Origin: Spirochaetota bacterium
GTDB lineage: Bacteria > Spirochaetota > UBA4802 > JAFGJZ01
Length of the DNA stretch: 45,718 nt
Assembly (NCBI GenBank): GCA_029554345.1
Contig: JAKPJF010000169.1
Location: 1 to 45,718 of the forward strand
Reading direction: 5' to 3'
This document shows, in pieces, positions 40,945 through 45,718 of the stretch. Made by a program: the position numbers and the translations under genes. Under the pieces are notes generated by a model. It searched no databases. It was not told where the DNA came from and worked only from the letters and a program-made list of their open reading frames with translations. Within the stretch, counting starts at the first letter, position 1, and the number at the start of each line of letters is the position of its first letter.

Positions 40945-42216
40945 ATGAGTGCAAGTGTAAATTTCGGGAATCACCCTTGTTTTAACAGAGAACTAAGGCA
41001 TCAAACGGGAAGAGTTCATCTGCCGGTTGCTCCGGCATGCAATATTCAGTGTAATTTTTGCGACCGTAAGTATGACTGCATAAACGAATCTCGTCCCGGA
41101 GTGACAAGCACGGTTCTTAGTCCGCGTCAGGCTATTACATATCTTGATTCGGTCCTTGAAAAAATACCGAATATAGCCGTTGTCGGAATTGCGGGTCCGG
41201 GAGATCCTTTTGCAAATACAGAAGCCACTCTTGAGACGATGAGATATGTTCACGAAAAATATCCTGACAAGATACTGTGTCTTGCGACCAACGGAGTTGG
41301 TCTTCCTGACGCGGTTGAAGAAATATCAAGGATGAATATTTCGCATGTAACCGTTACGGTGAACGCCGTTGATCCGGAGATAGGCGCTAAGATATACAAA
41401 TGGGCGCGGCACGGCGGAAAAGTTTACCGCGGTGTTGACGCTGCCTGGTTTATTCTCTCGCGCCAGATTGAAGGAATTCGCGCGCTTAAAGAGAAAGGAA
41501 TTACCGTCAAAATAAACACAGTAGTTATTCCGGGTATAAACGATAATCATGTTCAGGAAATATCAATGAGGATGCTTGAACTTGGAGCTGATGTACAGAA
41601 CTGCATACCTCTATGTCCGGTTGCTGAAACTGAATTCGCGAATTTGATTCAGCCGACTCCTGTGGAAATGGCAAAGATACGTGAAGGTGCCGCTTCTTAT
41701 CTTCCTCAGATGAGCCATTGTGCACGCTGCCGTGCGGATGCGGCCGGTCTTCTCGGTCAGGCAAATCAGGAAGAAATTTCGGAACTTTTAAGTAAAGCTT
41801 CTAAAACAGAACTTTCAAATGAAAGACCGTATGTTGCCGTCGCCAGCATGGAAGGGGTTCTTGTGAATCAGCATCTGGGCGAAGCTGAATATTTGCGGAT
41901 ATACGGAATGAATAACGGTTCTCCCGAACTGATTGAAAAAAGATTTACGCCCGAATCCGGAAGCGGAGACCGCAGATGGGAAAACATGGCGGATTTGATT
42001 AAGGACTGCGCGGCGCTTCTTGTCAGCGGCGTGGGAGCAAATCCCAAAAAGATAATCGAAGGCTCGGGAGTAAAAATATATGCCGTGGAAGGTCTTATTT
42101 CAGAAGCAGTAGAAATGATAATGAAAGGAAAAGAACTTCCAAAGGTGATGATGAAAACTGCAGGAAGCTGCGGTATGGGAAAAACCTGCAGCGGCACCGG
42201 TGGAGGATGCGGATAA
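40945..42216 (+). CDS. nifB: NifB, radical SAM FeMo-cofactor core synthase
   Basis: NifB joins two [4Fe-4S] units with a carbide from S-adenosylmethionine to make the NifB-co precursor of FeMo-co. The 423 residues show the radical-SAM cysteines 32, 36 and 39 (APACNIQCNFCDRKYDC), the conserved ExR-like loop region GIAGPGDPFANTEAT, HARRGGKVYRG-like part ARHGGKVYRGVDAA, and CPVAETEFANL. The last ~120 residues form the NifX-like domain seen in many bacterial NifB proteins (VAVASMEGVLVNQHLGEAEY). The extreme C-terminus is glycine/cysteine-rich (GMGKTCSGTGGGCG), with possible Fe-S or metal-binding role. A [2Fe-2S] ferredoxin gene follows. Confidence 0.97.
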   Translation: MSASVNFGNHPCFNRELRHQTGRVHLPVAPACNIQCNFCDRKYDCINESRPGVTSTVLSPRQAITYLDSVLEKIPNIAVVGIAGPGDPFANTEATLETMRYVHEKYPDKILCLATNGVGLPDAVEEISRMNISHVTVTVNAVDPEIGAKIYKWARHGGKVYRGVDAAWFILSRQIEGIRALKEKGITVKINTVVIPGINDNHVQEISMRMLELGADVQNCIPLCPVAETEFANLIQPTPVEMAKIREGAASYLPQMSHCARCRADAAGLLGQANQEEISELLSKASKTELSNERPYVAVASMEGVLVNQHLGEAEYLRIYGMNNGSPELIEKRFTPESGSGDRRWENMADLIKDCAALLVSGVGANPKKIIEGSGVKIYAVEGLISEAVEMIMKGKELPKVMMKTAGSCGMGKTCSGTGGGCG

Positions 42217-42242: not shown

Positions 42243-42554
42243 ATGAAAAAACCAAAGCATCATATTTTCGTCTGCGCAAGTTTCCGCGCGGGCGGAGATG
42301 CGCAGGGAGTATGCGCGAAAAAAGGAAGCATGAATCTGCTTCAGTACATGGTTACTGAACTTTCCGACAGGGGAATGGCTGACTGCATGGTGTCCAGCAC
42401 GGGTTGCCTGAAAGTCTGTGACAGAGGACCTGCTCTCGTTGTTTACCCCGAGAACTGGTGGTACGGAAAGATTGAAAACGAAGCTATGATTGATGAAATT
42501 ATCGATTCAATCGAGTCGGGAGTTCCGGCTGAAAAATATCTCATAGCGGATTAA
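42243..42554 (+). CDS. Thioredoxin-like [2Fe-2S] ferredoxin
   Basis: 103 residues forming a thioredoxin-fold [2Fe-2S] ferredoxin with ligands Cys11, Cys24, Cys55 and Cys59 (HIFVCASFRAGGDAQGVCAK and STGCLKVCDRGPALVVYPE). The closing NWWYGKIENEAMIDEII is the family's conserved end. Related genes lie near nif genes in several bacteria, where they may carry electrons for FeMo-co synthesis or protect nitrogenase; the exact role is unproven. It lies 26 bases after nifB with a CGGAGG ribosome-binding site. The gene is followed by an imperfect 15-bp hairpin. Confidence 0.92.
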   Translation: MKKPKHHIFVCASFRAGGDAQGVCAKKGSMNLLQYMVTELSDRGMADCMVSSTGCLKVCDRGPALVVYPENWWYGKIENEAMIDEIIDSIESGVPAEKYLIAD

Positions 42555-42559
42555 TCCGG

Positions 42560-42601
42560 TTTCAGCGTTTCCGGACTAAATACATACCGGAAATGCTGAA
42601 A
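42560..42601 (+). other. Intra-operon 15-bp hairpin
   Basis: TTTCAGCGTTTCCGG (42560-42574) pairs with CCGGAAATGCTGAAA (42587-42601), with one G-T pair and a 12-base loop. It sits five bases after the ferredoxin stop and 20 bases before the next gene, and lacks a strong T-run (TTGATTTTG). A partial terminator or mRNA-stabilising structure that lowers expression of the downstream genes is the simplest reading. Confidence 0.7.
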
Positions 42602-42621
42602 TTGATTTTGAAGGAGGAAGA

Positions 42622-43053
42622 ATGGCTAACGATTGGAAGAAGTATTATGATGAAGGTCTGGCTTATATGAATTCTCTGAAGAAGCATATTGATACCGGAA
42701 AAAATTTCTCGCCTGAACTTAAATATAATATCTGTACTATGGGGATGGAGAAATTTTTTATTTCGATTTTGATTTATTATGAGATGATTCCTTTTCATCA
42801 CACGCTGAACGCTCTTGCGCAGGATGTAATGGAGTTTCACGATATGGATCCCGTGCTTGTAGACAATTTAAAAAAGATTGATTCATTTCAGGATATGTGT
42901 TCTCTTGAAATTCCAAAGCCCAGAGTTTTCACAAATGCCGAGATTGATCTGACTGAAAAGACATTTGAGGAAATTCATAGTTTGGCTAAACTAATTCTAT
43001 ACGGCATAAATGGTGCTGACGGTGATTCAAAAAAAGAAAGTGCGGTTTCTTGA
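42622..43053 (+). CDS. HEPN-like small helical protein in the nif operon
   Basis: 143 residues, mainly helical, that I do not recognise with certainty. The layout resembles HEPN domains: an N-terminal helix (DWKKYYDEGLAYMNSLKKHI), a second helix (ICTMGMEKFFISILIYYEMI), a turn with HHTLNALAQDVMEF, then a final helix (TNAEIDLTEKTFEEIHSLAK). The catalytic RX4-6H motif of toxic HEPN RNases is missing, so nuclease activity is unlikely; a binding or chaperone role is possible. It has a strong AAGGAGGAAG ribosome-binding site. The 44-base overlap with the following synthase gene suggests translational coupling. Confidence 0.7.
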   Translation: MANDWKKYYDEGLAYMNSLKKHIDTGKNFSPELKYNICTMGMEKFFISILIYYEMIPFHHTLNALAQDVMEFHDMDPVLVDNLKKIDSFQDMCSLEIPKPRVFTNAEIDLTEKTFEEIHSLAKLILYGINGADGDSKKESAVS

Positions 43054-44551
43054 TACGACTTTACGCGACGGATTGCAGTCTCCGTCTGTTCATTTTAACG
43101 ATAAGGCGAAAATAGAAATTGCATGCGCTCTTGACCGTGCGGGAATTGATGTTATCGAAGCAGGTTTTCCTTCAGCTTCAAAGAAGCAGTTTGATGTTAT
43201 AGATGCTATCTGCGGTGAAGTGAAAGGCTCTGTAGCCGTAATGGGACGAATGAATGAAAAAGATATATCGATATGCGCACAGTCTCTAAGAAAATCAGCT
43301 TCGGGATGCATTCACGTAAGTGTTCCTGCTTCAAAATATCTGCGTGAATCAAAGACGGGTCTTGATACTGCTTCTACGACGAAGCTTGCCCTGCAGTCGC
43401 TAAGTCTTATTAAATCATCAGGCTTCATCGCGGAAATAGGAATTGAAGACGCTGGCCGTACTGAATATTCTTATGTAGAAGAGCTTTGCCGTGTGTTATC
43501 CGAAAACGGCGCGGATATCATTAATATAGCCGACACATCGGGATTTATGCAGACTGATGAATTCGGTCATTTAATCAAAAAACTGCATTCATCTGTTTTG
43601 CGTTTTGAAACAGGAGAAACGGTTCTAAGCGTTCATTGTCACAATGATTTCGGTCTTGCAGCTGCAAATACTCTTGCTGGCATTTACAACGGCGCGTCTC
43701 AAGTAGAAACAACAATCGGCGGTGTAGGCGAAAGATCCGGAAACGCCCAGTTTGAAGCGGTGTTAGCCGCGCTCGAAGAAAGACCTGATTATTATAATGC
43801 CGAAACAAATATTGAAAAGAAGTCGGTTGCCTCATTGTGCGAACTTGTAAGAAAACATTCATGTCTAATCGAACCTGATTCCATACCGCTTTCAGGAAGA
43901 AATTCTTTTCTGCATTCTTCGGGAATTCATCAGAAAGCTCTTATAAAATCTAAAAATTCATATTCGATTATTAATCCTGAAGTTTACGGCTTTGATAAAG
44001 ACAGATTCGATATAACGGTTTTTTCTGGTTCCGGAGCTTTTGTTTTTTACGTAAAGGAACTTTGCGGATTGGAAATAGAAGAGGAGACTGCATCAGTATA
44101 TCTTTCTGAATTGAAAAATGAATATCATTCAAACGGAGTTATCAGTGCGACAGATATTTTGAGTTTTATTTACAATAAGGGATTATTCGCCGGCGAAATA
44201 TGGTTCCTTTCATCGATTAAATCATATGAGGAAAATGCACCCGGAGAGGTTTTACTCGAAGTTGAATTAAATTCGATAAATAATTCAATTCTGAAATGCG
44301 CGGCTTCAGGCAGCGATTTCGCTGATGTTTCTGCGAAAATTATTAATGATCTATTCAATCAAGAAATAGAAATAATTCAGACTCAGACATATTCGTCCGG
44401 ATCGGCGGGCAGTATTAGTTATAGATGTGATTTCAAAGCTTCATTTTCAGGGAAAATATACTATTCATCTAATGTCGCCGAAAGAATTTCGGAATCTGTT
44501 TTCAATGCTTTTCTTGATATTCATAACCAGATCGGAGGATGTAATGCGTGA
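43010..44551 (+). CDS. LeuA/NifV-family synthase, likely homocitrate synthase for FeMo-co
   Basis: The 513-residue sequence is in the 2-isopropylmalate/homocitrate synthase family: VRFLDTTLRDGLQSPSVHFN (Arg19-Asp20; Leu replaces Glu of the common RDGEQ), SVHCHNDFGLAAANTLAG (metal ligands His209 and His211), GGVGERSGNAQFEAV, and SGIHQKALIKSKNSYSIINP. Unlike typical ~380-residue NifV, it has the LeuA-type C-terminal regulatory domain (about 400-510, ALLEVELNSINNSILKC-like part EVLLEVELNSINNSI...), so it is built like 2-isopropylmalate synthase. Position after nifB and before nifA suggests homocitrate synthesis for FeMo-co, but leucine synthesis is possible. The start is uncertain: the ATG gives a 44-base overlap without a clear ribosome-binding site; GTG at 43022 is an alternative. 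Confidence 0.85.
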   Translation: MVLTVIQKKKVRFLDTTLRDGLQSPSVHFNDKAKIEIACALDRAGIDVIEAGFPSASKKQFDVIDAICGEVKGSVAVMGRMNEKDISICAQSLRKSASGCIHVSVPASKYLRESKTGLDTASTTKLALQSLSLIKSSGFIAEIGIEDAGRTEYSYVEELCRVLSENGADIINIADTSGFMQTDEFGHLIKKLHSSVLRFETGETVLSVHCHNDFGLAAANTLAGIYNGASQVETTIGGVGERSGNAQFEAVLAALEERPDYYNAETNIEKKSVASLCELVRKHSCLIEPDSIPLSGRNSFLHSSGIHQKALIKSKNSYSIINPEVYGFDKDRFDITVFSGSGAFVFYVKELCGLEIEEETASVYLSELKNEYHSNGVISATDILSFIYNKGLFAGEIWFLSSIKSYEENAPGEVLLEVELNSINNSILKCAASGSDFADVSAKIINDLFNQEIEIIQTQTYSSGSAGSISYRCDFKASFSGKIYYSSNVAERISESVFNAFLDIHNQIGGCNA

Positions 44552-44993
44552 AGTGGTGATAGAAAAAGCAGTTGCGGGAGATGCTCCGCTTCTTGCTGAA
44601 ATGATAAAAAAGCTTTTTGATATTGAAAAGGATTTTAAATCGGATATAGCGAATCAGATAAACGGAATTGTAATGCTTATTGAAAAAGAGCAGGCTGTAG
44701 TTTTTAAGGCGCTGTCCGGGGATAAAATAATCGGAATGGTTACCGGTCAGCTGGTCGTTTCCACCGCTTCGGGAGGATACTCGGTTTTGCTCGAAGATCT
44801 TTTCGTAGATACTGATTTCCGTCTCGGCGGTGTCGGCAAAGCGCTTCTGAAAAATTTAGTAACTTGGGCAAACCAAAACGGAGCATTAAGGATTCAGCTT
44901 GTGGCGGATACTTCAAATTCATCGGCTGAATCGTTTTATACGGCAATGGGTTTTTCTCCCACCCGCATGATGGGTTGGTATCAGTATCTGTAA
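44544..44993 (+). CDS. GNAT-family N-acetyltransferase
   Basis: 149 residues beginning MREVVIEKAVAGDAPLLAEM, with a GGAGG ribosome-binding site five bases upstream, which decides the start at 44544 over the ATG at 44427. Features are the GNAT beta4/motif A region VLLEDLFVDTDFRLGGVGKA (acetyl-CoA binding loop, RxxGxGxA-like with Leu and Val substitutions), then GALRIQLVADTSNSSAESFY and MGF. The substrate is unknown; homologues acetylate small molecules, amino groups or proteins. It overlaps the synthase gene by eight bases and is the last gene before nifA, so it belongs to the nif transcript. Confidence 0.9.
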   Translation: MREVVIEKAVAGDAPLLAEMIKKLFDIEKDFKSDIANQINGIVMLIEKEQAVVFKALSGDKIIGMVTGQLVVSTASGGYSVLLEDLFVDTDFRLGGVGKALLKNLVTWANQNGALRIQLVADTSNSSAESFYTAMGFSPTRMMGWYQYL

Positions 44994-45019: not shown

Positions 45020-45125
45020 GGCCATTCTGTTAAATCAAAGTTAATTTGTTGTTATACGAAGCTTGTTTTTCTGTTTTTTCTTTATGATTTGTGTCCTTTT
45101 TTGTTACTTGTTCCAAGAGGACAAT

Positions 45126-45718
45126 ATGGCACAGCAAAACAAAAACAAGGAAATTAACGAGCTTAGTCTTCTTTTTGATATCAGCCGCAAGCTGAACGAA
45201 ACCATGGATATAAAAAGTCTTATCCGTCCTGTACTGGAAATGATGGCGGAAAAGCTCGAAATGATGCGCGGCACTGTCACAATTCTCAACAGAAAAACAG
45301 GCGAACTGTTCATTGAAGAAGCATACGGCCTTTCGGATGATGAAAGGGAAAAAGGCAAATATAAAATCGGAGAAGGAGTTACCGGAAAGGTTTTTAATAC
45401 AGGAAAGCCGGTTGTAATTCCCAGAATTTCCGACGAACCGATGTTTCTTGATAAAACCGGATCGCGCAAAAAACTCAATAAATCGGACATTACTTTTATA
45501 TGCGTTCCCGTTATAGCTGACAATGAAGTTATTGGGACTCTTTCCGCAGACAGGCTGTTCAGCGACAGTGTTGCTCTGGATGAAGATTTAAGACTTTTAA
45601 CAATAATAGCTTCAATCATATCGCAGGGTGTCAGGCTTCGCCAGATTGCAGGTGAAGAAATGGACAAGCTCAAAGATGAAAACATGCGTCTTACCGACCA
45701 GCTGCGCGAAAAGCACGG
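45126..45718 (+). CDS. nifA: NifA-type sigma-54 activator, N-terminal GAF part (truncated by window end)
   Basis: The frame starts at ATG 45126 (AAGAGGACAAT before it) and runs off the end of the window, giving 197 residues. The sequence is a GAF domain in the NifA N-terminal style: ELSLLFDISRKLNETMDIKS, VLEMMAEKLEMMRGTVTILN, YKIGEGVTGKVFNTGKPVV, ITFICVPVIADNEVIGTLSA, then a helical linker (EEMDKLKDENMRLTDQLREK) that normally leads to the AAA+ ATPase. The AAA+ and DNA-binding domains are outside the window. It would activate the sigma-54 nif promoter; signal sensing by the GAF domain is not readable here. Note that nifI1/nifI2 provide a second, protein-level control. Confidence 0.9.
   Translation, partial: MAQQNKNKEINELSLLFDISRKLNETMDIKSLIRPVLEMMAEKLEMMRGTVTILNRKTGELFIEEAYGLSDDEREKGKYKIGEGVTGKVFNTGKPVVIPRISDEPMFLDKTGSRKKLNKSDITFICVPVIADNEVIGTLSADRLFSDSVALDEDLRLLTIIASIISQGVRLRQIAGEEMDKLKDENMRLTDQLREKH

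Follow-up and report, generated by a model that had tools for sequence, protein, structure and literature searches.

A predicted HEPN-fold protein encoded beside a long NifV-like synthase in nif loci of Spirochaetota

Organization of the locus

The window, i.e., the whole stretch of 45,718 nucleotides that was analysed (genome G000), carries nif genes in the order nifH-I1-I2-D-K-E-N-B-Fd. The same order was found in the sister genome G001, and altered versions of it were found in other relatives. The part of the locus considered here contains the following features:

40945-42216, + strand: NifB with a C-terminal NifX-type domain (TIGR01290 over the cut-off; PF02579, 1.8e-15)
42243-42554, + strand: 2Fe-2S ferredoxin of the nif operon, the upstream neighbour (NF041612, E 2.7e-25, below the cut-off)
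42557-42604, + strand: hairpin in the spacer between the ferredoxin and HEPN genes (18-bp stem, 12-base loop, no T run behind it)
42611-42617, + strand: AAGGAGG, ribosome-binding site of the HEPN gene (direct reading of the sequence; also in G001)
42622-43053, + strand: gene for the predicted HEPN-fold protein (143 aa, ATG start at 42622, stop 43053)
43010-44551, + strand: long LeuA-type NifV-like synthase, 513 aa, the proposed partner (family scans, tree and model)
44427-44993, + strand: GNAT acetyltransferase, downstream of the synthase (PF00583, 5.5e-13; the start given here is that of the longest ORF, and the true one may lie further downstream)

The ferredoxin and HEPN genes are separated by a spacer of 67 bases, and the AAGGAGG located directly ahead of the HEPN ATG is a strong ribosome-binding site. 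The synthase ATG lies at 43010, so that the two genes share exactly 44 bases (43010-43053), and no clear ribosome site was found ahead of this ATG. In comparison with its G001 counterpart, the HEPN gene showed a dS of 0.67, a dN of 0.043 and a dN/dS of 0.065, which indicates purifying selection; the ORF is therefore not a chance one. Its dN/dS is close to that of NifB (0.066) and lower than that of the synthase (0.139). An earlier reading made from the sequence alone had placed an ORF between the ferredoxin and a NifV-like synthase with a 44-base overlap, and the coordinates, the ribosome-binding site and the dN/dS value bear it out.

The spacer hairpin has a folding energy of -27 kcal/mol (z -5.5; none of 200 shuffled sequences was as stable) and is also present in G001. 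Because it is not followed by a T run, it may serve in mRNA processing or stability; a role in partial termination is possible as well.

Fold and superfamily placement

The window protein (P0001) taken alone gave no significant match to Pfam, NCBIfam or PDB sequences. No Pfam or NCBIfam family was reached over its cut-off, the nif families of both collections did not match P0001, and PADLOC assigned no family to it. Whole-genome searches across the phylum revealed divergent homologues, mostly 19-33% identical, and the placement of the protein is based on predicted structure and on family profiles.

The AlphaFold2 model obtained with a 15-row alignment was all-helical and comprised five helices (5-25, 31-52, 62-69, 77-88 and 105-127; pLDDT 83, pTM 0.78). 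In a Foldseek search against PDB, the top ten matches were all HEPN proteins (TM 0.46-0.66). These included 1wol, 1o3u, the human sacsin HEPN domain 3o10 (three chains), 2hsb and 4nqf (two chains), which are HEPN by title, and 1ufb, which we take to be a HEPN protein. A further match, 5yep, is the HEPN-MNT pair SO_3166-SO_3165 (PMC4621449). Since the best E value was 6e-3, the strength of this result lies in the agreement among the matches and not in any one of them.

A profile of the HEPN family was then aligned by hhalign with a PF05168-type profile built from 19 sequences that had been found with PF05168 in related genomes, and the match reached 94% probability (E 1.5e-7, 110 columns). Direct matches to PF05168 were sub-threshold: they occurred in six of the 15 members, the best being about 14 bits (E 0.05-0.11) at a Pfam cut-off of 22 bits that no member reached, and P0001 alone gave none. 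Each other Pfam family was matched by at most one of the 15 members, and the MtlR family was not found for any HEPN member in the Pfam and NCBIfam scans. A PDB profile match to 6egc (5e-5) was rejected, as this is a designed helical bundle and the match reflects helix composition.

The small all-helical, HEPN-like layout that had been read from the letters was thus supported by the AlphaFold2 model, Foldseek and hhalign. Structure prediction and profile-profile comparison, the checks proposed with that reading, both returned the HEPN fold, and the known group matched was the broad HEPN superfamily rather than an unrelated family. As judged from the model, the assignment of the window protein to the HEPN superfamily, as a member of the PF05168/AF0298 kind, holds.

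Active-site residues

P0001 has only one Arg in all and no match to the RX4-6H motif, as the sequence-only reading had stated. The motif, expected at the end of helix 3, was missing in P0001 and in 13 other members among the 15 examined; an R-X5-H at the canonical place was found in G187 only. Other positions are strongly conserved in the family, namely C93 (invariant, 15/15), E43 (14/14) and H60 (13/14). Based on HEPN anatomy, these three residues may face one pocket.

AF0298-type HEPN-T proteins likewise have no RX4-6H His, but their helix 2-3 insert contains one, and an alternative active site has been proposed for them; an acidic residue in helix 2 is common to many HEPN families (PMC3710099). 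The nif HEPN family retains both the insert His (H60) and the helix 2 acid (E43). It resembles HEPN-T of PF05168 (AF0298, 2hsb; TM0613, 1o3u) in these residues, in the predicted fold and helix order and in the profile match described above. It differs in falling under the Pfam cut-off, in having no nucleotidyltransferase partner and in its nif context. Furthermore, the Arg or other basic residue of the RYP motif is not conserved, and the invariant Cys93 lies beside that place.

Alternatively, the protein could be a cryptic RNase whose active site, formed by the insert His and the acid, is of the alternative AF0298 type, and which has been domesticated for the cleavage of transcripts, those of nif or others. 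H60 and E43, kept as in AF0298-type proteins (PMC3710099), and the R-X5-H of G187 are in its favour, but the basic RYP residue needed by the proposed site is not conserved, no MNT gene or antitoxin was found nearby, and P0001 has its single Arg; we regard this explanation as improbable. Although H60 and E43 are kept, RNase activity is unlikely judging by the residues, because RX4-6H is absent and the RYP Arg is not retained, and the protein is probably non-catalytic.

The toxin-antitoxin reading was rejected, since there is neither an MNT gene nor an RX4-6H motif. In the window, the HEPN gene is flanked by the ferredoxin and the synthase and no MNT nucleotidyltransferase lies beside it; none was recognised in the homologue loci, where unlabelled ORFs were scanned in part. 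The HEPN/MNT pair SO_3166-SO_3165 shares the HEPN fold with the nif protein and appears among its structural matches. The nif HEPN, in contrast to HEPN/MNT pairs, has no MNT neighbour in the loci examined, does not carry RX4-6H and is paired with a biosynthetic enzyme.

Distribution among Spirochaetota

The family profile was searched against 296 Spirochaetota genomes, and strong matches were found in ten (G000, G001, G002, G003, G018, G187, G032, G052, G213 and G285). NifB over the curated cut-off was present in 14 genomes of the same sample. The HEPN gene occurred in 9 of these 14 nifB-positive genomes vs. 1 of the 282 others (Fisher 5e-13, phylogeny ignored), the exception being G285, which carries a homologue but no NifB. 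With a wider sample of 393 genomes, two further carriers were found, G321 and G451, each of which has a nif cluster. A contig scan with P0001 as the query detected the sister MAG only, and tblastn of plasmids and phages gave no match. Family f15 gave weak matches (E about 1e-4) that fall within ORFs of some 520 aa; these were discounted as unrelated.

In the G213 family, the HEPN gene was found in seven genomes. It lies next to the nif core in five of them (G213, G321, G356, G322 and G354); G385 has the HEPN gene and a long synthase with no nif core found, and G329, whose genome is 82% complete, has neither. Separately, five loci of this family (L103, L104, L106, L110 and L113) contain clusters with NifB, a NifH-like protein of about 48% identity and ABC transporter genes, in part together with NifDK-like proteins (21-28% identical). 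These clusters are nitrogenase-like, probably of the group-IV type reported in PMC13067680.

Seventeen members were obtained in all, of which 11 are located in nif loci, one beside a long synthase alone and one beside a NifX-type gene. The last is that of G002, where the homologue lies apart from the nif cluster and apparently shares an operon with the genes for a PF02579 NifX-type protein and an orphan of 104 aa (L014:8219-9333). In G032, the HEPN gene is situated beyond nifV, directly behind a nifA-like gene, and has a weak PF02579 match beside it. No nif gene was found near the homologues of G003, G018, G329 and G285. The linkage with nif has been retained through changed gene orders in five taxonomic families. 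The link to nif loci suggested from the single locus is therefore confirmed within Spirochaetota by the 9/14 vs. 1/282 distribution, and among spirochaetes the homologues do not lie mostly outside nif loci (11/17 within them). The best explanation is a HEPN protein dedicated to nif in spirochaetes.

The long synthase and its pairing with the HEPN gene

Homocitrate synthase is believed to supply the nitrogenase cofactor with its organic acid. The window synthase matched LeuA models over its full length (331 bits) better than the nifV model, all below the cut-off; TIGR02660 (NifV) gave 239 bits against a cut-off of 463. In its model, residues 398-512 fold into two units, each with three strands and one helix, an arrangement also seen in the regulatory domain of LeuA. 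Foldseek returned LeuA and homocitrate synthases; the region 285-327 was poorly predicted. The long synthases carry Ser at alignment column 104 and Pro at column 293, like most short NifVs and unlike LeuA, and on these residues they likely make homocitrate. The Glu of RDGEQ and that of HE(S/A)GIH are replaced in all long synthases aligned.

Long LeuA-type NifV proteins (503-580 aa) were found in ten genomes, nine in nif loci (G000, G001, G052, G187, G213, G321, G356, G322 and G451) and one, in G385, away from such a locus. In the trees, which were built quickly and contain some long branches, the ten sequences formed one clade (SH-aLRT 97-99), apart from short NifV and from LeuA-type paralogues in the genomes examined. 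The HEPN gene lies beside the long synthase in all ten genomes and overlaps it in eight; in G356 and G322, where the synthase start is uncertain, the plausible choices all leave an overlap. In G385, the HEPN gene is 36 bp upstream of the synthase, and in G052, two ORFs resembling modB and modC separate the two genes. A tie to modABC alone was rejected, as HEPN-less clusters also carry mod genes. G451 was found after the pairing idea had been framed: its HEPN gene overlaps a 503-aa synthase of the long clade by 4 bases.

Among ten nif clusters with a short NifV, none has a HEPN gene upstream of nifV. Six of these, all complete-looking, are without any HEPN gene (G262, G007, G024, G039, G043 and G311), and the four other genomes have a homologue elsewhere that is not next to nifV (G002, G003, G018 and G032). 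For the nine nif-locus pairs, a split of this kind has a probability of 1e-5, common descent ignored. The HEPN gene tracks the type of synthase and not the organism, because families f1, f7 and f43 each contain both synthase types. Outside the phylum, the one case considered, the plasmid nif cluster of Desulfovibrio vulgaris, encodes a homocitrate synthase of the short type; a HEPN gene is absent from it. The earlier suggestion of a role tied specifically to NifB, NifEN, NifI or the ferredoxin was not supported, given that the six short-NifV clusters have those genes and no HEPN gene.

Since G002, G003, G018 and G032 keep a homologue, the need for the protein extends beyond the long synthase, and it may have a broader nif role. 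It could be a general accessory of FeMo-cofactor assembly whose former active-site face (E43, H60, C93) binds a metal, a cluster or an organic acid for delivery to NifEN, NifB or a NifX-type carrier. The conservation of these residues, the homologues in short-NifV nif genomes and the PF02579 neighbours in G002 and G032 are consistent with such a role; against it are the six complete-looking nif clusters without a HEPN gene and its presence in G285 without NifB. In addition, a site for a metal or cluster would be expected to have more than one conserved Cys, and the common pocket is a putative one, based on HEPN anatomy. We consider this accessory role unlikely.

The HEPN tree was poorly resolved, and one clade for the nine long-NifV-linked HEPNs was marginally rejected (p-AU 0.048). 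The pairing may reflect one ancestral event retained via descent or transfer. It is conceivable that the HEPN gene is a relic or hitchhiker with no nif role, carried along with the synthase gene: the long NifVs form a single clade, so the pair may stem from one event, and some homologues lie outside nif loci. However, strong purifying selection, residues conserved over deep divergence, linkage kept in changed gene orders and the genome-level association with NifB make a hitchhiker very improbable.

Relation to known systems

Like the known nif accessories NifX, NafY, NifQ, NifW, NifZ, NifM, HesA and Orf1, the HEPN gene is a small gene of the nif locus that adjoins cofactor genes; to our knowledge, none of these is a HEPN protein. 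No published link between HEPN and nif was found in the literature searched, and two recent papers on termite-spirochaete genomes do not mention HEPN. Together with the results of the Pfam, NCBIfam and PADLOC searches, this agrees with the initial view of an undescribed nif factor. The HEPN fold itself is known, and its nif context appears to be new.

A functional parallel considered was MtlR, a HEPN superfamily regulator of the mannitol operon, often without RX4-6H (PMC3710099), which acts via protein contact with HPr (PMC5320558). MtlR shares with the nif HEPN the superfamily, the location in a metabolic operon and the frequent loss of the motif. It differs in operon and partner, and its regulation and protein contact are known whereas those of the nif HEPN are only proposed. 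By analogy, the nif protein may be an expression regulator that binds RNA or a regulatory protein and tunes the output of the synthase gene or of the nif operon according to the nitrogen status. Motif-less HEPN domains have been proposed as RNA binders and MtlR offers an operon-level precedent (PMC3710099, PMC5320558); the strong hairpin ahead of the HEPN gene in G000 and G001 and the position directly behind nifA in G032 also speak for such a regulator. On the other hand, a small survey of equivalent spacers in other relatives found no comparable conserved hairpin, and coupling by overlap fits a subunit at least equally well. We would give regulation of expression a fairly low probability.

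Proposed role

Based on the above results, we tentatively suggest, at somewhat less than even confidence, that the HEPN protein is dedicated to nif and works with the long homocitrate synthase as its partner or regulator. In this view, a HEPN protein of the PF05168/AF0298 kind, now without the RNase motif, would have become a dedicated component of nif systems in spirochaetes. It would be made together with the long LeuA-type NifV from overlapping genes; the overlap and the lack of a clear ribosome site at the ATG at 43010 suggest coupled translation and a fixed stoichiometry. The HEPN protein would then probably bind the long synthase, and this contact may stabilise or regulate homocitrate production for FeMo-cofactor assembly, perhaps with the LeuA-like C-terminal domain of the synthase as the route of control. 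We infer translational coupling, physical contact, regulation and homocitrate as the product of the long synthase. As first imagined, the protein may also have a chaperone or docking role.

According to a stronger and rather doubtful version, the HEPN protein is an obligate subunit of the long LeuA-type NifV and, in response to a nitrogen or metal signal, gates this enzyme via its LeuA-like regulatory domain, the two proteins forming a second, non-orthologous homocitrate-supply module.

The full gene set of nitrogenase is still being worked out, also for the purpose of moving nif clusters into new hosts. If the HEPN protein is needed with one NifV type only, it is a missing part for such transferred clusters. 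If it serves a biosynthetic enzyme, it widens the known functions of a toxin-rich superfamily.

Adjoining genes

Downstream of the synthase, the GNAT acetyltransferase gene is a candidate for a second undescribed nif-linked gene. It is located next to nifV in the window, G001, G052 and G187 and near nifV in G311; in G451, a weak match near nifV lies on the opposite strand. The window ends within a NifA-like regulator, whose GAF-domain start occupies 45063-45716 and runs off the end (TIGR01817, 113 bits, first 183 positions).
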